NCBI GenBank assembly: GCA_934675585.1
Contig: CAKUQY010000009.1
Span: 7,924 to 71,923 of the forward strand
DNA: 64,000 nucleotides
Direction of reading: 5' to 3'
Source of the DNA: an uncultured Opitutales bacterium
GTDB taxonomy: Bacteria; Verrucomicrobiota; Verrucomicrobiia; Opitutales; UBA953
Position 1 is the stretch's first letter. Every line of letters starts with the position of its first letter. Below are positions 1 to 64,000 of the stretch, in pieces. Both the position numbers and the translations under genes were made by a program. The notes below the pieces were generated by a model, which ran no database searches, had not been told where the DNA came from, and saw only the letters and a program-made list of their open reading frames with translations.

Positions 1-2
1 AT

Positions 3-2039
3 ATTCCCGCGAACGCGCAAGACGCTTTGCCTTTGAATTTTGAACAGCCAGGAAAATCGCCGGCAGAAGCGCAGGGCTCGAAAATTTCGGCGCAGCTGAC
101 GCAGGACGAACAGGGGGCTTACAAAATTATTATTCATTTTCGGCAGAAACCAGGTTGGCACGTTTATTGGAAAAATCCTGGCGAGCTGGGTTATCCGCTT
201 TCGATTAATTGGCAGGGCATTCCCGCCGATGTAAAATTCGGCGAATGGCGCTGGTCAACGCCCGAATTTGATTTGACGAACGGCATCGTCAGTTTTGTTT
301 ACGGGCACGACGGCTATGTTGAAATTCCCGTGACGTTTGAAAATCCGACGACGATTTCTGGCGAAGCGTCTTGGCTCGCCTGCGACGCGGAGGGCTGTAA
401 ACCTTTCGACGCTTCGTTGTCGGTCGAGCTTAAAAAAGACGTTCCCGCGACGAGTTCGGTCGTTCCCGCGACCGCGTTCCCGCAAAAAAATCACAAAATC
501 AAAGCCGTTTCTGTTCGCAGCAACGACAAATTGCTCGTCGTCGAATTTTCGGGACTTGCCAAAGGCGAATATTCGACGGGATTTTTCCCAGATGGCGAAG
601 GCACGGGAGCGCAAGTAACAATTACAACGCGCGATGTTGACGCGGGAACGGTTGGCTATTTGGTCGAAGCGGAACCCAAAGTTTTGACGACGACGGGCGT
701 GCTCGTTACCGAATTTGGAGCTTATGAAATTGAAACTTCGCCAGCTCAAAAAGATGTTCCCGCCGCGAGCGTTCCCGCAACGGTGAAAAAGCAATCAGCG
801 AATGGCGAAGCGGCATTGGTTTGGAATCATTGGACGCTGGAAGCGCAAGAAGAAGCGCTCGCGCAGGGAAAAATTGTTTACGTTGATTTTACCGCGAGTT
901 GGTGCGCGACCTGTCAGGTGAACAAACGCATTTATTCGAATGACGAACTGGCAAAACTGCTTTCCGTCGAAGATGTCGTGCTTTTTAAGGCAGACTGGAC
1001 GCGCCGCGATCCCGCGATTACGAGCGAACTCGCAAAATACAATCGTTCGGCGGTGCCATTTAATATTTTCAAAAAAGCGGGAGCGCCCGACGTTATTTTG
1101 CCGTCGCTTTTTGCGGGAGCGCAAACGGTTATCGACGGGCTTGACGCGATTCGCGCGGGAACGGTTTTGGCTGTTGAGGAAGAAAATTCCTTCGGCTTGG
1201 TCGCGCTGGCGCTCGCGTTTGTCGGTGGTTTGATTTTGAATTTGATGCCTTGCGTTTTTCCCGTTTTGGGACTCAAAATTATGCATTTTGCAAACAACGC
1301 GGGACAAAATAAAAAGCAAGTTGCGGCGCATGGATTTGTTTTTGCGCTCGGCGTTTTGATTTCGTTTTGGTTTTTGGCAGGACTTTTGATTGCGTTGCGC
1401 GCGGGTGGCGAACAGCTCGGCTGGGGCTTTCAAATGCAGTCGCCCGTTTTTGTGCTTTGCATGACAATTTTGCTTTTCGTGTTTGGCTTGTCTTTGAGCG
1501 GCGTTTTTGAATTTGGCGCAAGCGCAACCAGCGTTGGCGGCGAATTGACCCACAAAAGCGGTTTCGCGGGAACGTTTTTCTCGGGCGTTTTGGCGGTCGT
1601 TGTTGCAACACCTTGTTCGGCTCCATTTTTGGCGCAAGCATTGGGCACGGCATTGACGTTGCCGGCGTTGCAATCGCTCGCGCTGTTTACGGCGATCGCG
1701 CTTGGTTTGGCAGCGCCGTATCTCATTTTGTCGTGCGTGCCGCAATGGTTAAAATTTTTGCCGAAGCCGGGCGCGTGGATGGAAACTTTCAAGCAGGCGA
1801 TGGCGTTTTTGCTTTACGCTCCCGCGATTTATTTTGCGTGGATTTTGATTGCGCAAATCGAAGATTCGCTCGCCGAACTTTGCGTGTTGATTTCGTTTAG
1901 CGTCATCGCGTTTGCGTGCTGGATTTACGGACGCTACGTTACGCCGATGCGGAGCGCGGGAACGCGTTGGCTCGCGGGAACGATCGCGCTTGTAATTTTT
2001 GTCGCAACGATAATTGCCGACATTTATTGGGTGCTTTAA
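3..2039 (+). CDS. DsbD-family thiol:disulfide interchange protein, 5' end cut by window
   Basis: The frame is open from base 3, so the true start and most of a signal peptide lie upstream; the TTG at 27 is probably not the start. Counting from that TTG, the parts are: an N-terminal periplasmic DsbD-alpha-like domain with a Cys pair near residues 119-124 (LACDAEGCKP); a thioredoxin-like domain at about 265-385 with the active site WCATC; then about eight hydrophobic segments from 388 to the end carrying the DsbD membrane cysteines (LMPCVFP and ATPCSAP). The family passes electrons from cytoplasmic thioredoxin to periplasmic substrates. The thioredoxin domain precedes the membrane domain, unlike Escherichia coli DsbD where it is C-terminal. 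Nine exact GCGGGAACG copies lie inside the gene. Confidence 0.85.
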   Translation: MPANAQDALPLNFEQPGKSPAEAQGSKISAQLTQDEQGAYKIIIHFRQKPGWHVYWKNPGELGYPLSINWQGIPADVKFGEWRWSTPEFDLTNGIVSFVYGHDGYVEIPVTFENPTTISGEASWLACDAEGCKPFDASLSVELKKDVPATSSVVPATAFPQKNHKIKAVSVRSNDKLLVVEFSGLAKGEYSTGFFPDGEGTGAQVTITTRDVDAGTVGYLVEAEPKVLTTTGVLVTEFGAYEIETSPAQKDVPAASVPATVKKQSANGEAALVWNHWTLEAQEEALAQGKIVYVDFTASWCATCQVNKRIYSNDELAKLLSVEDVVLFKADWTRRDPAITSELAKYNRSAVPFNIFKKAGAPDVILPSLFAGAQTVIDGLDAIRAGTVLAVEEENSFGLVALALAFVGGLILNLMPCVFPVLGLKIMHFANNAGQNKKQVAAHGFVFALGVLISFWFLAGLLIALRAGGEQLGWGFQMQSPVFVLCMTILLFVFGLSLSGVFEFGASATSVGGELTHKSGFAGTFFSGVLAVVVATPCSAPFLAQALGTALTLPALQSLALFTAIALGLAAPYLILSCVPQWLKFLPKPGAWMETFKQAMAFLLYAPAIYFAWILIAQIEDSLAELCVLISFSVIAFACWIYGRYVTPMRSAGTRWLAGTIALVIFVATIIADIYWVL

Positions 2040-2446
2040 AATTTTGTTGATCGCCGAAAACAATGATTTGTTTTAAATTTTTTTGTAATTGGCGAGCAGT
2101 GCAAAAGCAATTCAAATTTGCGCGGCTCAAGCGCTTGCAAAACTTGCGATTCATATTCGCTGACTACATTTTTTAGCAAACAACGCAAACGCGTTAAAAG
2201 CCAAAAACTAAAACCACGCGTATCGAGCGCAATAAATTCCGTTCCCGTGAAATTAATGTTCGCGGGAACGTTTTTTACAAGTTGCGAAATGTGTTCCCGT
2301 GAGCCGATAACGCAAAAATTTTGCGCACTACCGTTCCCGCAAGCATTTTCGCAAATCGCGCGAAAGGCGCGCAAAATGGCTGCGTTTCCCGCGTCCGCAT
2401 CTAATTTTTTCGGCTCGGGCAACAACAGACAAACGCGCGTTTTCAT
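2036..2446 (-). pseudogene. N-terminal remnant of a glycosyltransferase-like gene
   Basis: A 136-codon frame starts MKTRVCLLLPEPKKLDADAG, which resembles the start of a GT-B glycosyltransferase (family 4 style). The C-terminal part has no recognisable domain and no nucleotide-sugar-binding half, so this looks like a gene cut short. Its ATG overlaps the stop codon of the acyltransferase fragment upstream, as in a surface-polysaccharide operon, and its end touches the end of the dsbD-like gene. A deletion that fused this remnant to the dsbD side is likely. It could instead be a small unknown protein; I rate the glycosyltransferase origin as moderate. Confidence 0.4.
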
Positions 2447-2769
2447 ACTTTTATTTTATCTAAAAATGCTTTCCACGGGAACGCAAAAATAATCCAGTGC
2501 ATGATCATCGCCGCCACAAGCGAAAGCGCCGTCGTCGCTAAAAACACGTCGATGGCGCTTGGAATCGAATACAATTTGTGCCGCAAATAATAATACAAAA
2601 AGAAACTATGATTGAGCCACATCAAGCCCGAATATTTGCCGAAGAATTGAAAAATTTTCGCTGTGAACGTTCCCGTGGGAACGATGGAAATGAAAAGAAG
2701 AATTGTTGCAGGAAGAATGATTGAATTATTGTGATGAAATGAATCAATTACGAGAAAGATAACAAAATG
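2443..2769 (-). pseudogene. C-terminal remnant of an acyltransferase-3-like membrane protein
   Basis: The minus-strand frame is open from a TGA at 2770-2772 to the stop at 2443, but has no start codon before the ATG at 2625. The translation carries hydrophobic stretches (IILPATILLFISIVP, then FLATTALSLVAAMIMHWIIF) and the ending FPWKAFLDKIKV. The GKYSGLMWLNHSFFLYY segment is typical of the last membrane helices of acyltransferase-3 (OafA/WecH-like) proteins. About 110 residues remain of the usual 350 or so. It lies directly upstream of the glycosyltransferase-like remnant with overlapping stop and start, which suggests a decayed polysaccharide-modification operon. Confidence 0.5.
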
Positions 2770-2837
2770 TCAAAAAAACAGAGGGCAAGTTTTAATTTTG
2801 CAACGGCGTTCCCGCAAAAGTTCGTTCCCGCAAAATA

Positions 2838-2872
2838 AAAAAACCGCAAGTTTTGAAACTCGCGGTTTTTTT
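2838..2872 (-). terminator. Terminator downstream of tRNA-Lys
   Basis: A hairpin pairs AAACCGC with GCGGTTT, with an inner AGTTT/AAACT stem. It is flanked by T runs on both strands, so it may act in either direction. It begins one base after the CCA end of the tRNA. Confidence 0.75.
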
Positions 2873-2947
2873 TGGTAGGACGCTGGAGACTCGAACTCCA
2901 AACCAATTGCTTAAAAGGCAACTGCTCTACCATTGAGCTAGCGTCCC
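2873..2947 (-). tRNA. tRNA-Lys(UUU)
   Basis: The reverse complement folds as a cloverleaf. The acceptor stem is GGGACGC/GCGTCCT, followed by A and an encoded CCA. The D arm contains AGCTCAATGGTAGAGC. The anticodon stem is GTTGC/GCAAT around the loop CTTTTAA, giving anticodon TTT, and the T arm is TGGAG-TTCGAGT-CTCCA. The gene is 75 nt. A terminator follows immediately. No other tRNA is adjacent. Confidence 0.96.
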
Positions 2948-5141: not shown

Positions 5142-5170
5142 TTGTCGTTCCCTCGCGACCGAATTATAAT
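5142..5170 (+). promoter_or_regulatory. Sigma-70-type promoter of the MBL gene, leaderless layout
   Basis: TTGTCG (5142-5147), a 17-bp spacer and TATAAT (5165-5170). The ATG at 5178 is 7 nt after the -10 box, so transcription should start at or beside the start codon. Confidence 0.65.
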
Positions 5171-5177
5171 AACTGTT

Positions 5178-6587
5178 ATGAGAATTACCCCATTTGGCGC
5201 CGCAGGAGGCGTAACCGGCTCGTGTTATTACATCACGACGAAAAAAGCAAAAATCGTAATTGATTGCGGCATTTTTCAAGGATTTTCGATTAGCGAAGAG
5301 CAAAATCGAATTCCGCCAAGCATTGACATTCCAGGGCTGTCGGCTGTCATTTTGACGCACGCGCACCTCGACCATTGCGGACGCTTGCCGTTGTTGGTAA
5401 AAGCGGGTTATCGCGGTCCTATTTTTGCGCTTGCGTCAGCAATTGAAGTGGCAAAATTGATTTTGCTCGATGCGGCTCACATTCAAGAAAGCGATACGAT
5501 TCGCGCCAATCGCCGTCGTGCGCGCGCGTTGCGCAAGCCGCGGGAACCGCTTTTTACCACCGAAGATGTCAAAAAAGTGTTCCCGCTTTTTCAAGCCGTT
5601 GAATACGAACAAGAAACGCCCGCGGGAACGGGATTTAAATTTAAATTTGTCGATGCTGGTCACCTTTTGGGTTCGTCGAGCGTCGAATTATTTGTGAATG
5701 ATCAAGGCGTGCAAAAATCGCTTTTGTTTAGTGGCGATTTGGGAAATTATAATTCTCCAATTATGCGCGACCCAAAAACGATCGACGATCACGATTTTGA
5801 TATGATTTTTGTCGAATCAACTTACGGCGATCGCGACCACCGCGATTTGGATGCGACCGTGCGCGAATTTTATGAACTTGTTAGCGCCGCAATCAAACGC
5901 AACGGAAAGGTGTTAATCCCAACATTTGCCGTTGGTCGAGCGCAACAATTGTTATTCCATCTTGGACAATTTTTTGCTTCGGGAACGCTCCCGCGCGTGC
6001 CCATTTATCTCGACAGCCCGATGGCGATTAAAGCGTCTCGGCTCTACAAAAACCATGTCGATGAAATCGATGAACAATTGAGCGTTCCCGCGACACAACA
6101 AATGTTGAAAGAAGGGCTCAAATCACTCAAAGTTTGCGAAACCGGCGAAGAATCGCAAGCCCTCAACGACAAGCCCGGACCTTTTATTGTTTTGGCGGGA
6201 GCGGGAATGTGCAACGGCGGACGCATTTTGCACCATTTTCGTCACGGACTTTGCAAATCTGAAAACACGGTAATTATTTGTGGTTACCAAGCCGAAGGTT
6301 CGCTCGGTCGTATGCTCGCAGAAGGCAAAAAACGTGTGCGCATTTACGGCGAAGAAATTGGCGTTGCCGCAACGGTGCGCACGCTGGGCGGTTTTTCGGC
6401 TCACGCAGGCCAAACAGAATTGATGAAATGGCTGACGCCACTTTGCCAAAAAAGCAAAGAAAAACGTCCGCGCGTCGTCGTCATTCACGGCGAAAATAAA
6501 CAGCGCGCCGCGCTTGCAGAATTGATTCATGTGCGCTTTGGTATTCGCCCGATGATTCCTTATTTGGGCGAAGCAATTATTTTGTAA
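5178..6587 (+). CDS. MBL-fold beta-CASP RNA-processing nuclease family protein
   Basis: 469 residues. The metallo-beta-lactamase zinc motif HAHLDH is at residues 61-66, followed by SGDLGNYNSP. The beta-CASP part has FAVGRAQQLL and GAGMCNGGRILHH, and the end carries FSAHAGQTEL, which supplies the last metal-binding His. This is the CPSF73-like bacterial class of RNA endo- or exonucleases (YsiA/TTHA0252-like). I chose the ATG at 5178 rather than an upstream one because the fold starts at MRITPFGAAGG and a promoter overlaps the upstream codons. It begins a same-strand run with the DUF192 gene 7 bp downstream. The native RNA target is not evident. Confidence 0.88.
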   Translation: MRITPFGAAGGVTGSCYYITTKKAKIVIDCGIFQGFSISEEQNRIPPSIDIPGLSAVILTHAHLDHCGRLPLLVKAGYRGPIFALASAIEVAKLILLDAAHIQESDTIRANRRRARALRKPREPLFTTEDVKKVFPLFQAVEYEQETPAGTGFKFKFVDAGHLLGSSSVELFVNDQGVQKSLLFSGDLGNYNSPIMRDPKTIDDHDFDMIFVESTYGDRDHRDLDATVREFYELVSAAIKRNGKVLIPTFAVGRAQQLLFHLGQFFASGTLPRVPIYLDSPMAIKASRLYKNHVDEIDEQLSVPATQQMLKEGLKSLKVCETGEESQALNDKPGPFIVLAGAGMCNGGRILHHFRHGLCKSENTVIICGYQAEGSLGRMLAEGKKRVRIYGEEIGVAATVRTLGGFSAHAGQTELMKWLTPLCQKSKEKRPRVVVIHGENKQRAALAELIHVRFGIRPMIPYLGEAIIL

Positions 6588-6594: not shown

Positions 6595-7032
6595 ATGAAG
6601 CGCTTGTTTTTGGCGATTGGTTTATTTGCGGGAACGTTTTTTTGCGCTTGCGAAAAAACACTTGACGTTCCCGCAACAACGCCAATTGTTTTGAGCAACG
6701 GTGTACAAATTTTGGTCGAAATTGCCGACGATGACGCAACAAGAATGCGCGGTTTGCAAGGACGTAAAAATTTGCCAGAAAATCACGGCATGCTGTTTGT
6801 GTATTCGCGCGGAGATCGCCGAGCGTTTTGGATGAAAGACACGCTCATCGATTTGTCGATTGGCTATTTTGATTCGGCGGGAACGCTTGTCGAAATTTAT
6901 GATATGAAAGCGGGCGATGAAAATTCTACAATCTCACGTTCCCGCGATATTAAATATGTGCTTGAAATGCCCGCTGGCTGGTACGCGCGCCACGGCATTT
7001 CGGCGGGAACGGTAAGTTTAAAATTAAAATAA
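6595..7032 (+). CDS. DUF192 family secreted or lipoprotein
   Basis: 145 residues. The N-terminal hydrophobic segment (LFLAIGLFAGTFFCAC) has cysteines at 17 and 19 that could be lipidated. The body fits DUF192: MRGLQGRKNLPENHGMLFVY, then FWMKDTLIDLSIGYFD and a final MPAGWYARHGI. DUF192 proteins are small extracytoplasmic beta-barrel-like domains of unclear function. The Ala-Gly-Thr in the signal segment and Val-Pro-Ala just after it are both encoded by copies of the 9-mer. Its stop overlaps the next ATG by one base (TAATG), so the two are co-translated. Confidence 0.85.
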   Translation: MKRLFLAIGLFAGTFFCACEKTLDVPATTPIVLSNGVQILVEIADDDATRMRGLQGRKNLPENHGMLFVYSRGDRRAFWMKDTLIDLSIGYFDSAGTLVEIYDMKAGDENSTISRSRDIKYVLEMPAGWYARHGISAGTVSLKLK

Positions 7033-8380: not shown

Positions 8381-9580
8381 ATGAAATACAAAGAACTTGA
8401 AAATCTCTGCGACAAAAATCTAATTACGTTTGAACAACGCGATGCGATTGCAGAAGCGCTAAAAATTGGTCCATTTTCAAAAGCGCGCAATTACTTGTTT
8501 GTTTGCGCTTGCGCGTTGGGCGGCATTTTAGTTTTGGCGGGAATCATTATGCTGATTTCAGCAAATTGGGAAGACGTTCCCGCGCGCGTCAAGCAAATCG
8601 GCTCATCGATTTTGTTGCTTGGATTTTGGTTGGCGGGATTAAAATTTTTATTTCAAAAAAATCCTCGTCCCATCGTTGGCGAAATTTTTTGTTCGTTGGG
8701 CGCGGTGATGTTGTTGGTTTGCATCGCGCTTTACGGGCAAATTTATCAATTGTCGTCAGAAACTTGGAAGCCGCTATTTGCTTGGTTTGTCGGCATTGTG
8801 GCGTTCCCGTGGATTTTGAAATTGCGCGGCGTTTTTGTGATTTCGCTCATTGCGGGAACGGCGGCGATTTTAACTTATGCCAGCGAAAATTTTAATGGTA
8901 GCAATGCGTTTTTTATTACTTACGCAACGTTTATTTCGATTTTTGCTTTGGGCGTTTTTCTTAAAAATTGTTTGGGCGAAAAAGCGCGCAGCTACGCGGT
9001 GTTCCCGCGCGTGGGCGGGTTTTTGTGCGCGACAATGATGGCGTTTTTTGCGTGTTCTAGTGTTGTCAATTTCAAAATGTCCGCACTTTTAGTGTTCGCG
9101 GGAACGCTCGTATTTTTGGTGGCGCAAATTTGGAATGTTTTTTGCACGAGCGAAAATAATCGTCGCTTTGGTATTTTTGTTGCGGGAACGCAAGCGCTCT
9201 TTTTCGTGTTCCCGCTCATCGCCTCCGCTATTTGTTTTGGGAATAATATTTCTGAAATTTATTTTGGAGACAACAATGTGTTTGAAATTTTGATGATTGC
9301 GCTTTTCTTTGTAACAGGCGTTCTCACGATGATTTGGGGCGCAAAAATCAACGAAAAATTTCACATTAACACGGGAACGATTTTGGTGTTGCTTTCGGGC
9401 TTGGCGGTTTTGACGCGCGTCATCGAATCGCTTTCTACGAGCGGATTTGTGCTGATTTTTGCGGGAACGTTTTTTCTCGCGTTTGCTTACGCGTTGGCGC
9501 GTTCCCGCAAAATTTTAACCGAAAAAGTGGCGAATGAAAATACAAGCGTTCCCGCCGAAAAACCAACCGAAAATCAATAG
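8381..9580 (+). CDS. DUF2157-type multi-spanning membrane protein
   Basis: 399 residues. A short cytosolic head (LENLCDKNLITFEQRDAIAEAL) is followed by about ten hydrophobic helices starting with FVCACALGGILVLAGIIMLISANWEDVPA, the ISANW motif typical of DUF2157. The function of this family is unknown. The next gene encodes a GDYXXLXY-type protein, the usual partner of DUF2157/DUF4401 genes, which strengthens the call. Seven exact 9-mer copies fall in this 1.2-kb gene, encoding Val-Pro-Ala, Ala-Gly-Thr and Arg-Ser-Arg in or beside membrane segments. Confidence 0.8.
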   Translation: MKYKELENLCDKNLITFEQRDAIAEALKIGPFSKARNYLFVCACALGGILVLAGIIMLISANWEDVPARVKQIGSSILLLGFWLAGLKFLFQKNPRPIVGEIFCSLGAVMLLVCIALYGQIYQLSSETWKPLFAWFVGIVAFPWILKLRGVFVISLIAGTAAILTYASENFNGSNAFFITYATFISIFALGVFLKNCLGEKARSYAVFPRVGGFLCATMMAFFACSSVVNFKMSALLVFAGTLVFLVAQIWNVFCTSENNRRFGIFVAGTQALFFVFPLIASAICFGNNISEIYFGDNNVFEILMIALFFVTGVLTMIWGAKINEKFHINTGTILVLLSGLAVLTRVIESLSTSGFVLIFAGTFFLAFAYALARSRKILTEKVANENTSVPAEKPTENQ

Positions 9581-17800: not shown

Positions 17801-19237
17801 TTAAAATTGGAAATAGATGAATTGGGTTGCGCCACCGTCGTATTGCAAAATGAAAAACATAAACGCGCCGTAAAATGCCCAGCGGAGAATTTGGTTTTTG
17901 GCGGGAACGTGTTCGAGTGCGAATTCGTTGCGGCGGGAGAGCCATTCGGCGAGAATTAAAAACGCGAGCGCGGGAACGATAATTCGCGGACAATTTAAGT
18001 CGAGCGGCATTTCAAGCCAAGTTCCCGAGCAGAGCATTCGTTTTGTAAAATTCCACGCGTCGGTGATTGTTGGGGCGCGGAAAATGATCCAGCCGAAAAC
18101 GACGGCAATGAACGTTCCCGCGACTTGAAAAAATTCTTTGATTGATGGGAAAAATTTTGCGTCGGAGGCGACGATGTCGAGATTTTTGCGATTACGTTTT
18201 GTGAGCAAAAGCGGGATAAAAAGCGCGGCGTTAAAAAGTCCCCAAACGATGTAAGTCCAGTTCGCGCCGTGCCAAAGTCCGCAAACTGCAAAAATGATGA
18301 AAGTGTTTCGCAGCGTTTTTAGCATTCCCGCGCGCGAGCCGCCGAGCGGAATGTAGAGATAATCGCGAAACCAGGTGTTGAGCGAAATGTGCCAGCGGCG
18401 CCAGAATTCTGCGATGTCGCGCGAAAAATATGGATAATGAAAATTCTTTTTTAGCGAGATGCCGAAAAGTTTTGCGCAGCCGATTGCGATGTCTGAATAG
18501 CCAGAAAAATCGCCGTAGATTTGGAACGCGAAAAGGATTGCGGCGATTGCGAGTGCGCTGGCGGGAAGATTTTCGTAATTTGCCCAAACGGTATCGACGG
18601 CTTTGGCGCAATTATCGGCGATGACCATTTTTTTGAAAAATCCCCAAAGCATTTGGCGAAGTCCGTCAATGGCTTGAGCGTAGTCAAAATGGCGTTCCCG
18701 CGCGAATTGCGGGAGCAGGTTGGTCGCGCGTTCGATGGGTCCCGCGACGAGCTGCGGAAAAAAGCTGACGTAAGCAAAAAACTGCACGCAATCGCGCGTG
18801 GCTTTGATGTTCCCGCGAAAAACGTCGATCGAATAACTGAGCGCCTGAAATGTGTAAAATGAGATGCCGACGGGCAGAATGACGTTGATGAGCCAGCTTT
18901 CGGAGTTCCCGCCAAAAACGAGTTGTGTAAATTCTATAACGAAAAAGTTGTAATATTTGAAAATGCCGAGAATAGCGAGATTGACGACGATATTTGCGCC
19001 GCAAATGAGTTTTTTAGCGTTCCCGCGGGAACGTTCGATGGCGATTCCCGAAGCCCACGAGCAAAAACTTGTGAACGCGATTAAAAACAGAAATCGCCAA
19101 TCCCACCAGCCGTAAAAAATGTAGCTGACGACGACTACAAAAATGTTTTGCAATTTGTAGTTGCGGTTAAAGACAAACCAATACAAGAGAAAAACAATTG
19201 GCAAAAAGAGCGCAAATTCGATCGAGTTGAAAATCAT
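17801..19237 (-). CDS. MBOAT family membrane-bound O-acyltransferase (AlgI-like)
   Basis: About 478 residues with ten or more membrane helices. The MBOAT signatures are FWRRWHISLNTWFRDYLYIPLGGSR in pieces, and the catalytic-histidine segment CGLWHGANWTYIVWG. The family moves acyl groups from the cytosol onto cell-surface polysaccharides such as alginate. I start at MIFNSIEFALFLP (19237) because this is where AlgI-like proteins begin; an ATG five codons upstream is possible. The SGNH gene follows as the probable periplasmic partner. Confidence 0.88.
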   Translation of the reverse strand: MIFNSIEFALFLPIVFLLYWFVFNRNYKLQNIFVVVVSYIFYGWWDWRFLFLIAFTSFCSWASGIAIERSRGNAKKLICGANIVVNLAILGIFKYYNFFVIEFTQLVFGGNSESWLINVILPVGISFYTFQALSYSIDVFRGNIKATRDCVQFFAYVSFFPQLVAGPIERATNLLPQFARERHFDYAQAIDGLRQMLWGFFKKMVIADNCAKAVDTVWANYENLPASALAIAAILFAFQIYGDFSGYSDIAIGCAKLFGISLKKNFHYPYFSRDIAEFWRRWHISLNTWFRDYLYIPLGGSRAGMLKTLRNTFIIFAVCGLWHGANWTYIVWGLFNAALFIPLLLTKRNRKNLDIVASDAKFFPSIKEFFQVAGTFIAVVFGWIIFRAPTITDAWNFTKRMLCSGTWLEMPLDLNCPRIIVPALAFLILAEWLSRRNEFALEHVPAKNQILRWAFYGAFMFFILQYDGGATQFIYFQF

Positions 19238-23446: not shown

Positions 23447-25210
23447 ATGAAATTATCACATATTTTTTCTACGATTGCGCTTTCGACTTTGGGCTGTGGT
23501 TTGGCTACGGCGGCAAATGAGCGTCCAAACATCATTTACATTATGAGTGACGACCATGCCGTGCAAGCAATTTCGGCTTATGGTCATCCTATTTCTCAAT
23601 TGGCGCCAACGCCTAATATTGACCGCATCGCAAACAATGGCGTGCTTTTTATGCGCAATTATTGTGCAAATTCGATTTCGGGGCCTTCGCGCGCTTGCAT
23701 TATTACGGGCAAACATTCTCACGCAAATGGCTACATGAGCAACGAATGGGGTGGATTTGATGCGCGCCAAAATAATGTTGCCAAAATTTTTCGCAAAAAT
23801 GGTTACCAAACCAGCATTGTTGGCAAATGGCACATTCCTGCCGACCCAACAGGATTTGATAATTGGCAAGTTTTCCACGAGCAAGGCGTTTATGTTAATC
23901 CCGATTTGCATTGTGGCACGGCGAACGGACGCGTTCCCGCGGGAACGCAAGTGAATTTGGGCAACGACCAAATTGTGCGTGCGGGCAAAAATGGCGTTGC
24001 GGTACCAGAAGGTTATTCAACCGAAATCGTTACTTCGCGCGCGATTGAATGGCTTGAAAACGAACGCGATAAAACGAAGCCATTTTTCTTTATGGTGCAT
24101 TACAAAGCGCCACACCGCAATTGGATTCCCAAGGCAAAAAATTACAATCGCTATGATAACGTAAAATTCCCAGAACCTAAAAATTTCTTTGATAATTACG
24201 AAGGTCGCCAAGCGGCAAAAGCGCAAGATATGACGCTTTTGTGGACGATGCGTTGGGAAGAAGATTTAAAATTGTTCCCGAGCAAAGATCGTCACGAATT
24301 TTTGCGCGGCACGCTCCCGCCACGTATGACGCCAGAGCAACGACAAGAGTTTATTGACGCTTATGTTGCGAAAAACAATGCATTTTTTGACGCGAATATT
24401 TGTTCCCGCGAAGAATGGGAAGAATGGCGTGCGCATCGTAGCGACCCAAAATGGCTTGCTGAAAACGCAAAAAAATTGGAAAAATTTCAAAGCTGGGCTT
24501 ATCAGCGCTATTTGCAAGATTATCTCGCAACGATTTGTGGCGTTGACGATGGCGTTGGCGATTTGCTCGATTATTTGAAAAAATCGGGACTCGATAAAAA
24601 TACAATTGTTTGCTACGCGGCGGACCAAGGTTTTTATCTTGGCGAACACGGCTGGTTTGACAAGCGTTTTGCTTACGAAGAATCGTTCCGCATGCCAATG
24701 ATGATGACGGGACCAGGCATTGCGCAAGGCAAAAAAATTGAACAATTGACGCAAAATATTGACTTTGCGCCAACGTTCCTTGAATTGGCGGGCATTCCTG
24801 TTCCCGCAGAAATGCAAGGCGAATCGTTCAAAAAATTGCTCGACGGTGAAATGCATCCCGATTGGCGCAACTCGCTTTATTATCAATATTACGAGTTCCC
24901 GGCAGAACACTGGGTAAAACGTCATTGCGCGGTCAATTTCCGTTCGCACGACGGTAAAGAAGATTGGAAATTGATTCATTTTTACAAGGAAGACGTTTGG
25001 GAACTTTACAATCTTAAAAACGACCCGACAGAAATGAAAAATCTTTACGGCGTTGCGGGAACGGAAAACGCAACCAAAATGCTCAAAGCAGAAATGGCGC
25101 GTTTGCAAGAAAAATATCAAGTTCCCGCCGAATACACCAGATCGGGCGTGCCACGTCGCAACGATGACGATTTGAATTTGACAGCGTCTTTGCGCAAGCC
25201 AACAGAATAA
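23447..25210 (+). CDS. Secreted sulfatase (type I, formylglycine family)
   Basis: 587 residues with a signal peptide (MKLSHIFSTIALSTLGCGLATA). The metal-site start RPNIIYIMSDDHA and the formylglycine motif S-G-P-S-R (SISGPSRACIITGKHSH) are intact; the modified residue is Ser, so an anSME-type maturase would be needed. Later motifs are VGKWHI, YKAPHR and DQGFYLGEHGWFDKR. The C-terminal half ends with the usual WELYNLKNDPTEMKNL. It probably releases sulfate from host or algal glycans. Upstream TTG (23441) is less likely than this ATG. A 9-mer-pair terminator follows. Confidence 0.93.
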   Translation: MKLSHIFSTIALSTLGCGLATAANERPNIIYIMSDDHAVQAISAYGHPISQLAPTPNIDRIANNGVLFMRNYCANSISGPSRACIITGKHSHANGYMSNEWGGFDARQNNVAKIFRKNGYQTSIVGKWHIPADPTGFDNWQVFHEQGVYVNPDLHCGTANGRVPAGTQVNLGNDQIVRAGKNGVAVPEGYSTEIVTSRAIEWLENERDKTKPFFFMVHYKAPHRNWIPKAKNYNRYDNVKFPEPKNFFDNYEGRQAAKAQDMTLLWTMRWEEDLKLFPSKDRHEFLRGTLPPRMTPEQRQEFIDAYVAKNNAFFDANICSREEWEEWRAHRSDPKWLAENAKKLEKFQSWAYQRYLQDYLATICGVDDGVGDLLDYLKKSGLDKNTIVCYAADQGFYLGEHGWFDKRFAYEESFRMPMMMTGPGIAQGKKIEQLTQNIDFAPTFLELAGIPVPAEMQGESFKKLLDGEMHPDWRNSLYYQYYEFPAEHWVKRHCAVNFRSHDGKEDWKLIHFYKEDVWELYNLKNDPTEMKNLYGVAGTENATKMLKAEMARLQEKYQVPAEYTRSGVPRRNDDDLNLTASLRKPTE

Positions 25211-26636: not shown

Positions 26637-29264
<2,628 letters not shown>

Positions 29265-29297
29265 TTCATTCACGGGAACACTTAATTTATTACAATT

Positions 29298-46673: not shown

Positions 46674-47077
46674 TTGAACGTTTTGAATTAAAAACAGAGA
46701 GTTAAAAGTTGGCACTGCCGATTTTTTTTCTCAACGAGGGAAACTAAGGTTTTTTATTTGTTGCTTGCGCGGGAACGTGGATTTTAACTTTTTTAAGTGC
46801 CGAAGGCACTAAAATTGCGGGAACGCGTTCCCGCAATGGCTAACCCCTACAAAAGCGAGCGAATTTTATTTCAGTTATTTTCAAACTCGCTCATCGTCAT
46901 TGTCATCGTCATAGTCGCGCGAATGCGCGTCTCGCCTGTGGGGGAAAACAAAAAAAATCAGTCCCAACGGGAGTGAACTAAAAAACACAGGATTAGTTTC
47001 CTTTAAATTTTCCCGTAGTTTCCATAGTTGAAAAAATCCCGCGTTCCCGCAACAGCGTTCCCGCGTTCCCAAAAAAT
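46674..47077. repeat. Repeat cluster upstream of fucK
   Basis: No gene seen. It contains a partial reverse copy of the TTAGTTTCC repeat (46737-46770), a GTGCCGAAGGCAC hairpin unit with an inverted 9-mer pair in its loop (46797-46870), a CAGTCCCAACGGGAGTGAAC unit (46960-46985) and a forward TTAGTTTCC unit (46992-47041). The same units, in another order, lie at 63684-63893. Confidence 0.75.
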
Positions 47078-47106: not shown

Positions 47107-47139
47107 ATTTTGCAGTTAAAATTCAAAAAATCTCCAAAA

Positions 47140-48575: not shown

Positions 48576-49850
48576 ATGACTAAACACACAATAATTAATG
48601 GCGATTGCCGTCAAATGAAGGAATTAGCAGATAATTCAGTTCATTTGATTGTTACTTCGCCACCTTATTGGCAGTTGAAAGATTATGGAAGTTCAGAACA
48701 AATTGGTTTTAACGATTCGTATGAAGAGTATGTAAACAATTTGAATTTGGTTTGGAAAGAATGTTTTCGTGTTTTGCATGATGGTTGTCGTTTGTGTATA
48801 AACATTGGTGATCAGTTTGCGCGCTCGGTTTATTATGGACGTTATAAAGTAATTCCTATCCACTCTGAAATTATTCGTTTTTGCGAGGCGGCAGGGTTTG
48901 ATTTTATGGGTCAAATTATTTGGCAAAAATCGACGACGATGAATACGACTGGTGGTGGAGCCGTGATGGGGAGTTTTCCGTTCCCGCGCAATGGTATCGT
49001 AAAATTAGATTTTGAGTATATTTTGCTTTTTAAAAAGCAGGGCAAGGCACCGATGCCAGCTTTAGAGCAAAAGAAAAATTCAGAAATGACAAATGCAGAA
49101 TGGAATACTTATTTTAGTGGTCATTGGTATTTTAATGGAGCCAAACAAGATAAGCATTTGGCGATGTTTCCAGAAGAATTGCCAAAGCGTTTGATTAAAA
49201 TGTTTTCATTTGAAGGTGAAACCATCTTGGATCCATTTTTGGGAAGTGGAACAACTGCGTTGGCTGCAAAAAATTTAGGGAGAAATTCTGTCGGCTACGA
49301 AATTAATTCAGATTTTATTCCAATAATTAAGGAAAAAATTGGCGGTAACACACTTTTGGAAACTTGCGAAATTAGAGAATTGAAACAAAATTTAACAGAA
49401 AAAGAAGAGATTTTGTCTGCGATAAAATCGTTGCCGTATCAATTTGTCGATGTTCATAAAATTGACAAAAAAATTGATGTGAAAAAGCTACAATACGGTT
49501 CAAAAATTGATGCAAAATCTACGGGAACGCGCGAGGAGCTTTTTACGGTTAAAGAAATTATTTCGCCAGAATTATTGCGGCTTAGCAATGATTTGGTAGT
49601 GCGTTTAATTGGTGTAAAACAAGATTCACAAGTTAACGGGAACGCAATTGTGTATTTGAGAGAAAAACTTCACAAAAAACGTGTGTTTTTGCGTTATGAC
49701 GAGCAAAAATACGATGCTCAAAATAATTTGTTAGTTTATCTTTATTTGGAAAATAAAACATTTGTGAATGCGCATTTGATTCGCGACAAAATGGCTCTTA
49801 TCGATGACGGTATGAATTTTAAATATAAACAAAAATTTCAAAACTTGTAA
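48576..49850 (+). CDS. Type II DNA methyltransferase, beta-class (TSPPYW)
   Basis: 424 residues. The catalytic motif IV TSPPYW comes first (about residue 28), and the AdoMet motif I region LDPFLGSGTTALAAKNLGR follows at about 217, the order of beta-class N4-cytosine/N6-adenine enzymes. SPPY favours N4-cytosine. A C-terminal extension of about 150 residues is unassigned. It is AT-rich with few GC-ending codons, unlike fucK, consistent with transfer. It still contains two or three 9-mer-type copies (48981 exact, ACGGGAACG at 49522 and 49637). Pairs with the nuclease gene 4 bp downstream. Confidence 0.88.
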   Translation: MTKHTIINGDCRQMKELADNSVHLIVTSPPYWQLKDYGSSEQIGFNDSYEEYVNNLNLVWKECFRVLHDGCRLCINIGDQFARSVYYGRYKVIPIHSEIIRFCEAAGFDFMGQIIWQKSTTMNTTGGGAVMGSFPFPRNGIVKLDFEYILLFKKQGKAPMPALEQKKNSEMTNAEWNTYFSGHWYFNGAKQDKHLAMFPEELPKRLIKMFSFEGETILDPFLGSGTTALAAKNLGRNSVGYEINSDFIPIIKEKIGGNTLLETCEIRELKQNLTEKEEILSAIKSLPYQFVDVHKIDKKIDVKKLQYGSKIDAKSTGTREELFTVKEIISPELLRLSNDLVVRLIGVKQDSQVNGNAIVYLREKLHKKRVFLRYDEQKYDAQNNLLVYLYLENKTFVNAHLIRDKMALIDDGMNFKYKQKFQNL

Positions 49851-49854
49851 TAAT

Positions 49855-50493
49855 ATGGGAAAAGAATGGATATTAAATAGTGCAATGAATAGATTTCAGC
49901 TTAATTTTAAGCGAAATGTCGGTCCAACTTCAGAGTCAATTAGAAAATGCTCGCCAAAATCTTTGCAAGAATGGCAAAAATTTTATTATGAAAATGTGAA
50001 AAGTGAAGCTCATATTGAAGAGCTCGGTAGAAAGCTTTATATTAAAATTAGCGAAGTGCTTCAAAAAGAAATTGTAGAAATTACCGAGCAAGATTGTATT
50101 GATTATATGAAAAATCTTGTAATCAATAGAACTTATGATGGTTATACAACTGAAATTTCAACAATTTATGGACAATTGGAGAAAATTTTAAATGTAAAAA
50201 TTGAACCAGCCACAGACGAATGGGATCGTCTGTTTAATGTTGATTTTTTTATTCAAATTAGTGAAAAATTTATTGGTTTGCAAATAAAGCCAATTAATAA
50301 AGGTGTTCAAATCCCTGAAATTTTTAAAGAGTATTCATTGCAAGAAAAAACTCATAAAAATTTTACAGAAAAATTTGGAGGAAACGTTTTTTATATTTTT
50401 TCACAGAAAAATGACAATAATAAAAAAGAAATTGTAAACAAGGAAGTTTTTCCTGAAATCGAAAAAGAAATTGAGCGTTTGAAATCCCTTTAA
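49855..50493 (+). CDS. Restriction endonuclease, MjaI-like family
   Basis: 212 residues. The sequence begins MGKEWILNSAMNRFQLNFKR and has NVGPTSESIRKCSPKSLQEW, INRTYDGYTTEISTIYGQL, then the nuclease-like core EWDRLFNVDFFIQI...GLQIKP (an Asp and a Q-x-K pair). These segments fit the MjaI restriction enzyme family, whose named member cuts CTAG; specificity here is inferred only. Strongly AT-rich and free of the 9-mer. It ends 24 bp before fucA. Confidence 0.7.
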   Translation: MGKEWILNSAMNRFQLNFKRNVGPTSESIRKCSPKSLQEWQKFYYENVKSEAHIEELGRKLYIKISEVLQKEIVEITEQDCIDYMKNLVINRTYDGYTTEISTIYGQLEKILNVKIEPATDEWDRLFNVDFFIQISEKFIGLQIKPINKGVQIPEIFKEYSLQEKTHKNFTEKFGGNVFYIFSQKNDNNKKEIVNKEVFPEIEKEIERLKSL

Positions 50494-51366: not shown

Positions 51367-51786
51367 ATGTTAAAAGGAATTTCTCCGTTTATCGGTCCCG
51401 AACTTTTGAAAATTCTCGCGGAAATGGGCCACGGCGATGAAATCGTCATTTCCGACGCGCATTTTCCCGCGCACACGTTTAACGCGCGAGTTGTGCGCGC
51501 GGACGGCGTTCCCGCGGACTCGCTTTTGGCTGGTATTGTTCCGCTTTTCGAACTGGACGCTTATGCCGTTCCCGTCGTGATGATGGCTCCCGTTCCCGGC
51601 GATTCGCTCGACCCTAAGGTTGAAGAAAAATATCGCAAGGCGCTGGATTATTCTGGCGAAATCGAACGCATGGAGCGCTACGCGTTTTACGAGCGCGCGA
51701 AAAAGGCCTACGCGGTTGTCATTTCTGGCGAAACGGCAAAGTACGGGAACGTTATTTTGAAAAAAAGCGTTACACCCTGCGCTTAA
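51367..51786 (+). CDS. fucU: L-fucose mutarotase (FucU/RbsD family)
   Basis: 139 residues, as usual. Family segments: [34 protein letters not shown] in pieces, where His22 and Asp30 are the conserved catalytic area, and [10 protein letters not shown] at the end. It interconverts alpha and beta L-fucose for the isomerase. It is the last native gene before the GC-rich block. Confidence 0.92.
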
Positions 51787-51801
51787 CAAAATGATCATGT
51801 A

Positions 51802-53466
51802 ATGAAAAAACAATCGAAGAATCCGACGAAATACGTCTTCATCACCGGCGGCGTGGTGAGTTCCCTCGGCAAGGGTATCACGAGCGCGTCCCTGGCGCTG
51901 CTCCTGAAGAGCCGGGGGTACAAGGTGTTCATGCAGAAGCTCGATCCATACCTGAACGTCGATCCGGGCACGATGAGCCCGTACCAGCACGGCGAGGTGT
52001 TCGTGACGGACGACGGGGCGGAGACGGACCTCGACCTCGGCCACTACGAGCGCTTCGCGGGGGTGACCTGCTCGAAGGCGTCGAACTACACGTCGGGGCG
52101 CATCTACTCGGTCGTCCTTGCGCGCGAGCGCGCGGGCGGCTACCTGGGAGGTACGGTGCAGGTGGTGCCGCACATCACGAACGAGATCAAGGACGCCATC
52201 AAGTCCGCCGGCGAGCATGACTGCGACATCGTCCTCTGCGAGATCGGCGGCGTCTCGGGCGACATCGAGTCGCTGCCGTTCCTGGAGGCGGCGCGGCAGT
52301 TCCGCTTCGAGCAGGGCTACGACAACACGTGCTTCGTCCACCTCACGCTCGTTCCCTACCTGAAGGCGGCGGGCGAGCTGAAGACGAAGCCCTCACAGCA
52401 TTCCGTCGGGCAGCTCCGCGCCATCGGCATCATCCCCGACATCCTTGTGTGCCGCACGGAGATGCCGATCCCGCAGGAACACCTTGCCAAGCTTGCGCTC
52501 TTCTGCAACGTGCGTCCCGAGCGCGTCATCGAGGAGAGGGACGTGACGGACTCCGTCTACGCGATCCCGCGCGAACTCCGCAAGCAGGGACTGGACGAAG
52601 AGGTGCTGAAGCAGCTGCACCTCGACATCTGGCCGATCAAGCACACGGTGTGGGATACGCTCGTGAAGAAGGCGACACAGCCGAAGAAGAGCTGCACGAT
52701 CGCGCTCGTCGGCAAGTACATCGCGATCCGCGACGCCTACAAGTCGGTCCACGAGGCCCTGCACCATGCGGGCATGGCGCATGACTGTAAGGTCCACGTG
52801 AAGTGCATCGAGGCGGAGGAGCTGGAGAAGAATCCGTCGCTCCTCAAGGGCGTGGACGGCATCCTCGTGCCGGGCGGCTTCGGCAGCCGCGGCGTGCCGG
52901 GCAAGTGCCTCGCGATCAAGTATGCGCGCGAACACAAGATTCCGTTCCTCGGAATCTGCCTGGGGATGCAGTGTACGGCGATCGAGTACGCGCGCGATGT
53001 CGTCGGCTGGTCGGATGCGAACTCGACGGAGTTCGATCCGAAGACGGCGCATCCCGTCATCGACCTCATGGAGACGCAGAAGGGCGTCACGCAGAAGGGC
53101 GGCACGATGCGCCTCGGCGCGTACCCGTGCGTCGTCCGGAAGGGCACACTCGCGGCGAGGCTCTACGCGCCCGCCTACGGCGAGAAGGGCAAGGAGGACT
53201 TCACGATCTCCGAACGCCACCGCCACCGCTACGAGCTCAACTACGACTCGGAGGGCCGCAAGGCGCTGGAGGCGGCGGGGCTGAAGGTGTCCGGCACGTC
53301 GCCGGACGGCACGCTCGTCGAGATCGTCGAGCTGCCGGATCACCCGTATTTCATCGCGGGGCAGTTCCATCCCGAGTTCAAGAGCCGCCCCACCGCGCCG
53401 CACCCGCTTTTCGACGGACTCGTCGCGGCGGCACTGAAGCAGAAGCAGAAGAAGGGCGCGAAGTAG
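51802..53466 (+). CDS. pyrG: CTP synthase
   Basis: 554 residues, full length. The synthetase half starts [22 protein letters not shown] in pieces with [15 protein letters not shown]; the glutaminase half has the nucleophile Cys in LGICLGMQC and the final [11 protein letters not shown]. It aminates UTP to CTP with glutamine. Its codons are extremely GC-rich after about codon 10, while the first codons (ATGAAAAAACAA) look native, so the left join may lie within the start of this gene. glmS follows 12 bp later. Confidence 0.93.
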
Positions 53467-53470
53467 GAGG
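53464..53470 (+). promoter_or_regulatory. Strong Shine-Dalgarno of glmS
   Basis: AGGAGGG sits 8 bases before the glmS ATG and overlaps the pyrG stop. Native genes in this window mostly lack such a site. Confidence 0.8.
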
Positions 53471-53478
53471 GACACGCC

Positions 53479-54429
53479 ATGTACGGCATCGTCGGATTCT
53501 CCAGTCACACGCAGGGCGCCTGCCGCCCGCTCGTCAACGGCCTGCGCCGGCTCGAATACCGGGGCTACGATTCGGTGGGCGTCGCCCTGGAGTCGGCGGA
53601 CGACCTGCGCGTCTTCAAGCGGACGGGCAAGGTCGCCGAACTCGACAAGCTCCTCGCGCGGGAACTCCCGGAGGCCGAGCGCGGCAAGTACACGCTGAGC
53701 ATCGCCCACACGCGCTGGGCGACGCACGGCCTGCCGACGGAGGCGAACGCGCACCCGCAGGTCGCGGACGGCGGGCGGCTCGCGCTCGTCCACAACGGCA
53801 TCATCATCGAGAACTACGCCGCCCTGCGCGCGAAACTGGAGAAGCGGGGCTGTGTCTTCGTCTCGCAGACCGACACCGAGGTTCTTGCGCACCTCATCGC
53901 GACGTTCGATACGGGCGACTTCATGGCGGCCGTCTCGCAGGCCCTGAAGCAGGTCGAGGGCACCTATGGCCTCGCCGTCCTCTCCCGCCGCCACCCGGGC
54001 GAAATGATCGTCGCCCGCCGGGGCTCGCCGCTCATCATCGGCGTCGGCGAGGGCGTAACCGTCGTCGCGAGCGACGTCTCGGCCATCGTCTCGCATACGC
54101 GGCAGGTCGTCTACCTCGAGGACGGCGACATCGCCCGCATCACGCCGGAGGGGGCGGACATCTTCACGCTCGACAACGCGCCCGTCGCGCGCGACGTCCA
54201 GGAGATCGAGTGGGACGCGGCGGCGGAGAAGGACGGCTACGACCATTTCATGCTCAAGGAGATCTTCGAGCAGCCCGAAGCGCTCCGCAACGCAATCCGC
54301 GGGCGGCTCGACCACGCAGGCGGCACGGCCGTCCTCGCGGGCCTCAACCTGCCGCCGCGCGAGCTCGCGACGATCCGCCGCGCCGTCACTTCCCAGGTGT
54401 CGTTGGAAATTTTGCGCGTGGCGACGTAA
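53479..54429 (+). pseudogene. glmS: Glucosamine-6-phosphate synthase, truncated (GlmS')
   Basis: Only 316 codons of the usual 600 or so. The glutaminase domain is complete: Cys nucleophile in MYGIVGF, RRLEYRGYDSVGVAL, AHTRWATHG and HNGIIIENY. The frame follows GlmS to PRELATIRRAV (about 54388), where ACGTS of the isomerase domain should follow; instead 14 foreign codons (SQVSLEILRVAT) run to a stop. Both SIS sugar-isomerase domains are lost, so it cannot make glucosamine 6-phosphate. The break coincides with the edge of the GC-rich block. Confidence 0.9.
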
Positions 54430-54836
54430 ACGCCGCCTTGCGAAGCGGGGTCAGAAATCGCCGCCGTTCCCGTTTCCACCAGCCAAACATCGCGGTAAAT
54501 TCCGCCGAAATACGAAAAATCTAATTGTTCTTGCGGTTTTCCCGGAGGAAAATCGGGGTCGTTCGAATTGTCGCAAATTACTCGCAGTTCGTTCCCGCGC
54601 GCTTTTAGTTTTCCCGTTACTTCGAGATGAATCGGGTGAAAGCCACCGAAGCGTTCGCCGATTTTTTCGCCGTTCAGGAAAATTTCGCTTTTGCCCATGA
54701 TCGCTTCGAAATGCAGAAACTGACGGCGGTTTGTCGTTTTGAAGTCGAAGCGTTTTATGTATTCCGCGCGTCCTTGATAATTGCTCCCGCCAGAAACTTC
54801 AAAATCTGTGACGTTCAGCGTGTGCGGCAGATTCAC
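54388..54836 (-). pseudogene. N-terminal fragment of a GH2 (beta-galactosidase-like) gene
   Basis: From 54836 the minus strand reads VNLPHTLNV, then RQFLHFEAIMGKSEIFLNGEKI and GNELRVICDNS, DFSYFGGIYRDVWLVE: the sugar-binding jelly-roll of glycoside hydrolase family 2. Near NDTWEVT it runs into the reverse of glmS and the barrel with the catalytic Glu residues is missing. Upstream the frame stays open to about 54960 without a clear start, in part through 9-mer-encoded Gly-Gly-Asn repeats. The native base composition shows it belonged to this genome. Probably cut by the block insertion or by the chimeric join. Confidence 0.8.
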
Positions 54837-61541: not shown

Positions 61542-61543
61542 AA

Positions 61544-63118: not shown

Positions 63119-63575
63119 CGAATTGGTTAAAACAATTTTTGCGCGCGCGGGAACGCAAACATTCGCGTGCGCAGAATCGTTTACGGGAGGAAAAATCGCC
63201 GACGCATTTGTTTCGGTTGCTGGCGCAAGCGTATTTTTCAAGGGCGGAATCGTCGCTTATGAAACCGCGCTCAAAACAAAAATTCTTGGCGTTCCCGCAG
63301 AATTGATTGAACAATTTAGCGTTTTTTCTGAACCCGTCGCGCGAGCCATGGCTGAACAAGTCGCAAAACTTTGTGGCACAACTTGCGGGATCGGCACCAC
63401 AGGCGTTGCTGGACCCGACGACCAAGACGGCGTTCCCGCGGGAACGGTTTTTATCGCCGTCAAAACGCCCGCGGGAACGTTCGCACAAAAACTCGAAATC
63501 AAAAATCGTTCCCGCGAAGCCGTGCGCGAAATCGCTACGCGCGCAGCACTCGAATTGTTGCGGGAACATTTGTAA
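63111..63575 (+). CDS. CinA C-terminal domain protein (NMN amidohydrolase-like)
   Basis: 154 residues. The family pattern is clear: FACAESFTGGKIADAFVSVAGASVFFKGGIVAYE in pieces, then GTTGVAGPDDQDGVPAGTVFIAV. The first 260 residues of full CinA are absent, as in PncC. It deamidates nicotinamide mononucleotide in NAD recycling. I start at 63111 (MNSELVKTIF); the longer frame runs back inside the POT gene. Confidence 0.9.
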   Translation: MNSELVKTIFARAGTQTFACAESFTGGKIADAFVSVAGASVFFKGGIVAYETALKTKILGVPAELIEQFSVFSEPVARAMAEQVAKLCGTTCGIGTTGVAGPDDQDGVPAGTVFIAVKTPAGTFAQKLEIKNRSREAVREIATRAALELLREHL

Positions 63576-63683
63576 ATCCGCGTGTTTCTCAAAACCCTTT
63601 TCGCCGCAGACACTTTCGCTTGGTTCGCGTTTACTTCGCGTAAATTCGTGGTTAAAAAAATCCCGTTCCTGCCATTCCCGTGG

Positions 63684-63893
63684 CAACAAACAAAAATTCT
63701 TAGTTTCCTTTAATTTTCCCATAGTTGCCTTAGATGAAAAAATCCGCGCTCCTGCCGTTCCCGCTTTCCCGCGAAGTTTTTTAGTTCACTCCCTTCGGGA
63801 CTGATTTTATTTTTGTTTACCCCCCCCCCATGCTCGCATTCGCTCGCTTTTGTGGGGGTTAGTCATCGCAAGCGATTTTAGTGCCTTCGGCAC
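63684..63893. repeat. Repeat cluster matching the one at 46737-47041
   Basis: In order: TTAGTTTCC...TAGATGAAAA unit (63684-63747), CACTCCCTTCGGGACTG unit (63787-63803), a run of ten C (63820-63829) and a reverse GTGCCGAAGGCAC unit with CGCTCGCTTTTGTGGGGGTTAG (63838-63893). No gene in 63576-63957. Confidence 0.75.
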
Positions 63894-63930
63894 AAACAAC
63901 GTTCCTATTTCATCCTATTGAACCTTATGT

Positions 63931-63957
63931 AATAGTAATTGTTCCTCAATTACTATT
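63931..63957. repeat. Perfect 11-bp inverted repeat touching an ATG
   Basis: AATAGTAATTG-TTCCT-CAATTACTATT ends one base before the ATG at 63958. It could be an operator or an RNA hairpin that hides the start. Confidence 0.6.
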
Positions 63958-64000
63958 ATGAAAACATTTAACCGGTTTCATTTTTTATATAAAAGTGATA
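63958..64000 (+). CDS. Possible gene start, cut by window end
   Basis: ATG at 63958 opens a frame MKTFNRFHFLYKSD that is still open at the window edge. Only 14 codons are visible, so nothing can be said of its product; it may be chance. Confidence 0.25.
   Translation, partial: MKTFNRFHFLYKSD

Follow-up and report, generated by a model that had tools for sequence, protein, structure and literature searches.

Uptake codes, by which imported DNA is recognised as self, are to our knowledge known chiefly from two proteobacterial families. The DNA uptake sequence (DUS) of the Neisseriaceae is a word of the GCCGTCTGAA type, and the uptake signal sequence (USS) of the Pasteurellaceae has the core AAGTGCGGT with T-rich segments beside it. 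Here we analyse the 9-mer GCGGGAACG in a stretch of 64,000 nucleotides (hereafter the window) from an uncultured Opitutales bacterium of the phylum Verrucomicrobiota (assembly GCA_934675585.1, contig CAKUQY010000009.1), which an earlier reading of this DNA (the original prediction) had described as saturated with the word. Published uptake words are described as lacking palindromes and orientation bias and as being more frequent in non-coding DNA, and a molecular-drive account of them has been given (PMC1939737). We argue that GCGGGAACG is probably a DNA uptake, or self-recognition, sequence that spread by biased uptake and recombination, a reading to which our sequence comparisons lead us to assign a probability of roughly 0.6.

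Like the DUS, GCGGGAACG is an asymmetric word of about ten bases that occurs in thousands of copies, is specific to one lineage and combines a strict core with tolerant edges; its density is near that of the Kingella variant kingDUS, and ComEC and pilus ATPases are present in the genomes that carry it. It differs from the DUS in that the words are unrelated, in that it belongs to another phylum, in that no match to the ComP model was obtained (nor was one in control genomes), and in that its role in uptake is a prediction. Furthermore, it has no CTG core, which the DUS dialects are reported to share (PMC3630211). With the USS it has in common a 9-mer core, occurrence on both strands, perhaps T-rich positions beside the core, and a greater frequency in non-coding DNA, but the two cores are unrelated and the phyla differ. 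A report on the USS presents ComN as its predicted receptor in the title, while the abstract calls the receptor unknown (PMC12616744).

Over-representation in the window

The window contains 177 exact copies of GCGGGAACG, 96 on the plus and 81 on the minus strand, which corresponds to 2.77 per kb, whereas dinucleotide-preserving shuffles of the window (n = 100) gave a mean of 1.28 copies and a maximum of 5; the core 8-mer CGGGAACG is present in 242 copies. We also examined 40 chosen open reading frames (ORFs), which make up 85% of the window and 36 of which match a known family with an E value of 0.001 or lower; in this set, from which real genes may be absent, 123 copies were found, compared with a mean of 5.19 (standard deviation 2.25, maximum 11) under synonymous-codon shuffling (n = 200). 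The over-representation claimed by the original prediction is therefore confirmed, and it holds against a composition- and codon-matched model. Our recount also agrees with the nine exact copies given for positions 1-2039, with the seven given for 8381-9580 and with the presence of both orientations. All reading frames were said to be used, and indeed all six coding phases are occupied, though two are strongly favoured: Ala-Gly-Thr (48 of the 123 ORF copies) and x-Val-Pro-Ala (36). The statement that the word is denser than its known analogues holds in part: its density exceeds the usual one copy per kb, but kingDUS of Kingella oralis, with 5,918 copies in 2.4 Mb (PMC3630211), is nearly equal. 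Copies are more frequent outside the 40 ORFs (5.75 per kb) than within them (2.25 per kb), and conserved genes, such as gyrA, gyrB and that of CTP synthase, are poor in the motif (Table 1).

Distribution within the family

The best match to the window's GyrB protein, at 90% identity, comes from the Opitutales metagenome-assembled genome RUI087 (locus L001, genome G001); the next match reaches 66%. We counted the word, forward plus reverse and with the reversed word as control, in 79 genomes of the family, including eight of the genus (G001 and G008 to G014). Six of these eight are motif-rich (control in brackets): G001, the closest of them to the window, has 3,488 copies (48) in 1.6 Mb, G008 4,396 (44), G009 3,907 (48), G010 3,353 (52), G011 3,060 (46) and G013 3,514 (60). 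The count in relatives that the original prediction had proposed thus gives 3,060-4,396 copies in these six, against 44-60 for the reversed word. The other two are motif-poor, with 743 (62) in G012 and 336 (37) in G014. In the remaining 71 genomes, counts range from 9 to 172 and never exceed 1.6 times the control (16 versus 10 and 13 versus 8; 172 versus 141 for the highest count). Within the family, enrichment is therefore confined to one genus, 8 of the 79 genomes being enriched and all eight belonging to it.

In single stretches from 20 other genomes of the family (one of which, L042, held no readable bases), no word approached GCGGGAACG, and none of 25 GyrB-match loci from outside the genus contained a comparable one. 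The strongest word in these other genomes was observed in locus L046 of the GC-rich genome G024, where a stretch of 20 kb has 30 copies of CACCCTCA and 14 of GCACGCTC; they may represent a repeat family or a different code. Among open-licence papers, covered largely by their titles and the starts of their abstracts, we found neither a comparable word described for Verrucomicrobiota nor any report of GCGGGAACG itself. Scans of viral collections for paired motifs returned at least 171 stretches, the fifteen densest of which have 2-5 copies; the highest density among these is 3.1 per kb, reached in a stretch of 1.3 kb. The viral contigs L265, L235, L350 and L367 contributed short stretches with 1.7-3.1 copies per kb. 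Such stretches may be due to chance, or may be host pieces or proviruses of the genus.

A strict core with tolerant edges

One-base variants of GCGGGAACG occur in the window 65 times with the change at position 1, 33 times at position 7, 29 at position 9 and 10 at position 8, and 0-5 times at each of positions 2-6. In both the window and G011, changes at positions 2-6 scarcely rise above background, their excess per intact copy not exceeding 0.05, whereas changes at positions 1 and 7 are tolerated. An A immediately 5' of the 9-mer is nearly absent (2 of the 177 copies). Around the 54 sites outside the ORFs, T predominates at positions -2, -1 and 13-15, with 32 T at -1, 29 at 13 (where no C occurs), 26 at 14 and 25 at 15, and C predominates at positions 0 and 10; any conserved extension of the flanks is limited to the short T-rich positions. 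Neither GCGGGAACG nor CGGGAACG is palindromic. Two overlapping copies placed head-to-head form the palindrome CGTTCCCGCGGGAACG. We examined 1,877 sites in a combined 999 kb of the window and five relatives, where inverted pairs are scarce: 13 have this palindromic arrangement, and in the head-to-head orientation 25 pairs are spaced 20-29 bases, compared with 7 spaced 30-39.

Sites are conserved between most motif-rich species

The comparison of orthologues that the original prediction had called for was carried out on codon alignments of reciprocal-best ORFs from sampled stretches of the eight genomes and from the window. The control words were the 204 permutations of the 9-mer that contain two CpG, and the Fisher P values assume independent sites. 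In most motif-rich pairs, the sites are intact about twice as often as the matched words, and up to five times as often across the deepest split. Thus, G011 sites are intact in G010 at 131/167, against 264/802 for the controls (P 1e-27), in G013 at 91/139 against 198/715 and in G008 at 16/27 against 34/192; the values are 100/154 against 234/771 for G009 sites in G010, 206/268 against 520/1207 for G010 sites in G013, and 480/522 against 1282/1988 for G011 sites in G009, a close pair. Across the deepest split among motif-rich genomes, at about 64% nucleotide identity, G001 sites are intact in G011 at 30/103 against 27/457 (P 5e-10), in G009 at 18/73 against 20/349, in G010 at 13/41 against 24/247, in G013 at 10/40 against 12/218 and in G008 at 8/27 against 25/146. 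DNA alignments of a smaller sample are consistent with the codon alignments.

Probable loss of maintenance in two species

In the motif-poor G012 and G014, the sites of the other species are mostly not preserved and survive about as poorly as the controls. In G012, survival falls below the control for G011 sites (15/161 against 138/759, P 0.005) and G009 sites (5/108 against 96/617, P 0.001), and it is 9/62 against 67/422 for G010, 3/37 against 37/326 for G013 and 1/22 against 29/248 for G008 sites. In G014, it is 4/39 against 49/287 for G011 sites (P 0.36), 2/38 against 50/272 for G009, 4/27 against 32/242 for G010, 3/31 against 32/250 for G013 and 1/17 against 25/228 for G008 sites. Slightly above the control are G001 sites (4/52 against 14/286 in G012, 5/37 against 16/225 in G014) and window sites (1/18 against 1/76 and 1/2 against 0/16, respectively). 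The copies that the two genomes do possess are often shared with motif-rich relatives: those of G012 with G011 (15/30 against 138/933, P 1e-5), and those of G014 with G001 (5/7 against 16/236, P 6e-5) and G010 (4/5 against 32/216, P 0.003).

In the smaller DNA alignment, 5 of 54 G011 sites are gapped in G012, which indicates that most changes in G012 are substitutions. For positions 5-9, G012 has an excess of 0.26-0.37 one-mismatch words per intact copy, compared with 0.00-0.13 in G011. The most over-represented 8-mer of G012 is still CGGGAACG (4.8-fold), and this argues for decay rather than a switch; a new dialect in G012 was accordingly rejected. The top words of G014 derive from a GGGTTGGTGG-type repeat in local clusters, and a switch to another word is not excluded in this genome. 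Local clusters of a GGGTTGGTGGTG-type repeat were observed in G014 at L139, L188, L221, L223 and other stretches, with GGGTTGGT occurring 80 times in 122 kb where 2.3 are expected.

A tree of 13 proteins places G012 as sister to G008, G009, G010, G011 and G013 (support 99.4/99) and pairs the window with G001; in it the window is represented by three proteins and the outgroups by one or two, and the placement of G014 and the root are weak (21/56). A tree of GyrB alone groups G012 with G011 (92/90). Probably, the word is ancestral and predates the split of the two motif-rich lineages; it would have been actively maintained and then lost in the G012 line. It is likely that G014 also lost it.

Strand balance and a motif-depleted island

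Over 400 kb of one G011 contig, 327 copies lie on the plus and 381 on the minus strand, and the GC skew is negative in all ten 40-kb bins. The strand and replichore test that the original prediction had suggested thus shows no clear replichore bias. Over 480 kb of the contig, the core 8-mer has a mean of 30.8 copies per 10 kb with a variance of 31.4; when one depleted bin is left out, the ratio of variance to mean becomes 0.71, which is not significant (P 0.07). This strongly depleted bin, at 180-190 kb, has 9 core copies and includes a gap of 4,565 bases at 180,845-185,409, for which the expectation is 0.001. Two further gaps of about 2.4 kb follow, reaching 195,246. The first gap contains RexA- and HSDR_N-like ORFs, after which come Cas1 (I-C-like), an Mrr-like protein and an ankyrin-Schlafen protein; the last overlaps an ordinary gene, an adenylosuccinate synthetase-like ORF. 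Of ten ORFs per scan in the region, six were named by Pfam and five by PADLOC. The motif is therefore depleted in a foreign-looking CRISPR/restriction island of G011.

Competence and pilus genes

Our survey of the machinery covered pilus ATPases, ComEC, DprA, pilins, secretin and ComP. The search for comEC, dprA and pilin genes that the original prediction had recommended found all of them in the eight genomes of the genus. All eight also have three T2SSE ATPases adjacent to each other, which we take from their size and order to be PilB-PilT-PilB; next to this cluster, G011 encodes a PilC-like T2SSF protein. Secretin was found in seven of the eight, the exception being G008, whose contigs are short. 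At E 0.1, 64 pilin-like proteins were identified, one of them below the family cut-off: seven per motif-rich genome and eleven each in G012 and G014. Seven families are common to all eight genomes, and the four additional proteins, which are pseudopilins, are restricted to G012 and G014. ComEC, DprA, the pilus ATPases and the seven pilin families are all present in both motif-poor genomes, so that the absence of any of these was rejected as an explanation for the loss of the motif; among pilin identities no family stood out as fitting the loss.

In addition to the pseudopilins, and alone in the genus, G012 and G014 encode a second secretin close to them and, on another contig, a further GspE-like ATPase. 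This set, resembling a type II secretion system, was observed on contigs C36 and C66 of G012 and C62 and C75 of G014 (loci L186, L137, L188, L139, L395 and L396). Its association with motif loss, in two versus six related genomes, is a lead and not a cause.

An uptake sequence and its rivals

An uptake sequence is suggested by the joint fit of several observations: there is no clear strand bias, copies prefer unconstrained DNA and are scarce in the island, sites are maintained, the core is strict, and two lineages have probably lost the word. As expected of this class, the excess is genome-wide, on both strands and greatest in unconstrained DNA, and the genus possesses natural transformation genes (ComEC, DprA, PilB/PilT-type ATPases and seven pilin families in 8/8 genomes, secretin in 7/8). 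In the proposed mechanism, a predicted surface receptor of a DNA-import machine of the type IV pilus kind would recognise GCGGGAACG as a self tag. Tagged fragments would be preferentially imported and recombined into the chromosome, so that tagged alleles would replace untagged or mutated ones, and copies would accumulate wherever the protein sequence permits (molecular drive). G012 and G014 would have lost the specificity, leaving their copies to decay. The chances seem to us about even that the word is, more specifically, a third self-recognition code that evolved independently in Verrucomicrobiota, is older than the genus, uses a receptor unlike ComP and was lost in two lineages that would be natural knock-outs for finding it.

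Several observations weigh against this reading. ComEC is present in 73 of the 79 family genomes, most of which are not enriched in the motif, and the checked competence genes, being present in G012 and G014 too, do not explain the loss of maintenance; the uptake sequence suggested by the original prediction is the best fit for a non-palindromic, site-maintained word in genomes with the machinery, but the machinery also persists where the motif is being lost. The ComP_DUS model (PF16732) matched none of the eight genus genomes, although control genomes gave no match either, and no positively charged ComP-like pilin was found, the net charge beyond residue 35 being negative in all 54 pilins for which it was computed (of 56). 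Conservation is weak in pairs with G008 (4/12 against 29/150 for G009, 4/13 against 25/145 for G013 and 11/28 against 36/210 for G010). The window itself gives little support for it: its sites are intact in G001 at 7/15 against 7/17, which is no difference (in the reverse direction, 7/8 against 7/32), in G011 at 5/32 against 7/83, in G009 at 5/28 against 6/62, in G010 at 1/12 against 3/24, in G013 at 1/5 against 1/11 and in G008 at 2/2 against 6/12. Sharing between deep lineages could partly reflect parallel gain at near-motif sites, and any genome-wide binding protein under selection could produce similar conservation.

The last point leads to the main rival, a word like cyanobacterial HIP1 (GCGATCGC) that would be read inside the cell by a chromosomal reader, likely a methyltransferase, a repair protein or a nucleoid protein, and kept by selection for that role. 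HIP1 too is genome-wide, conserved at its sites, lineage-specific and low in some relatives (PMC4390886), and its very high density resembles what we observe here. HIP words are, however, palindromes tied to methylases, whereas GCGGGAACG is asymmetric, so that the HIP1 analogy drawn by the original prediction fails as to membership. Furthermore, among the 10 of 18 N6_N4_Mtase (PF01555) matches compared, no single gene tracks the motif, in assemblies that may be incomplete and with an ORF picked for G001 that matched nothing; these genes are patchy across the genus, and G010 and G011 have one match each, in different groups, that of G011 including the motif-poor G014. We regard a reader of this kind as unlikely, while ranking it ahead of the other rivals.

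A recombination signal or a self-propagating mutational product, both raised by the original prediction, are disfavoured by our data. Like Chi, which directs the RecBCD or AddAB nuclease, GCGGGAACG is short, asymmetric, over-represented and lineage-specific. Chi has a strong leading-strand orientation bias, and in Escherichia coli it is about ten times sparser than the 2-3 copies per kb of GCGGGAACG; the near-equal strands of G011 and the far higher density make such a signal very improbable. Scarcely more probable is a mutational or repair product that propagates itself without function. It would account for the concentration of copies where sequence is free to vary, but not for variants near background at positions 2-6 while positions 1 and 7 tolerate change, for sites conserved above composition-matched controls in most motif-rich pairs, or for the stop in G012 and G014. 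As for an artefact of codon use or composition, or a dispersed transposon-like repeat, the two coding phases that hold 84 of the 123 ORF copies might suggest one, but the 123 copies against 5 under synonymous shuffles, flanks lacking any conserved extension beyond short T-rich positions and the higher density outside ORFs refute it, leaving it a negligible probability.

If GCGGGAACG is indeed an uptake sequence, such a code arose outside its two well-known proteobacterial families, and gene exchange within the genus would be frequent. The question of drive versus selection in uptake codes rests on few cases, and a case in a new phylum, with motif-rich species and two that are losing the motif, makes this comparison possible. 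It could point to the gene that sets G012 and G014 apart, to the rate at which copies decay and to whatever protects them in the other species. The word could be used as a tag for sorting contigs of the genus in metagenomes and for designing transforming DNA.

Other features of the window

Table 1. Positions of motif features and genes in the window, and of the depleted island of G011
Feature	Location	Strand	Basis
Field of 177 GCGGGAACG (96 +, 81 -) and 242 core CGGGAACG	1..64000		motif count
Three copies in 44 bases, in DsbD-like ORF 27-2039 (nine copies in ORF)	440..483	-	motif count
Five copies, both orientations, outside the 40 chosen ORFs	6628..7011		motif count
DUF2157 membrane-protein ORF, seven copies, 5.8 per kb, densest of the 40 ORFs	8381..9580	+	family match, count
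Overlapping head-to-head pair, perfect palindrome CGTTCCCGCGGGAACG	19018..19033		motif count
Palindromic pair CGTTCCCGCGGGAACG	23932..23947		motif count
gyrB and gyrA, 2 and 1 copies (0.77 and 0.40 per kb)	26658..31775	+	family match, count
Two abutting copies, opposite orientation, outside the 40 chosen ORFs	46817..46834		motif count
DNA methylase and MjaI-type restriction enzyme, one copy in 1.9 kb	48576..50493	+	family match, count
Motif-free stretch: CTP synthase (51802-53466, no copies) and GlmS N-terminal-like ORF	51516..54589		family match, count
Palindromic pair CGTTCCCGCGGGAACG, outside the 40 chosen ORFs	63431..63446		motif count
Defence island: Cas1 (I-C-like), RexA, Mrr-type, HSDR_N-type, ankyrin-Schlafen	L083 1-14000 (G011 contig C11, ~180-194 kb)		Pfam, PADLOC

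A beta-CASP ribonuclease-like ORF at 5142-6587 has as its top NCBIfam match the type VII Cas14 model, far below the cut-off; it is probably an ordinary ribonuclease of the metallo-beta-lactamase fold. The methylase and MjaI-type restriction pair was likely acquired. It is flanked by sugar genes, a fuculokinase-like ORF at 47110-48558 and an aldolase-like ORF at 50518-51342.

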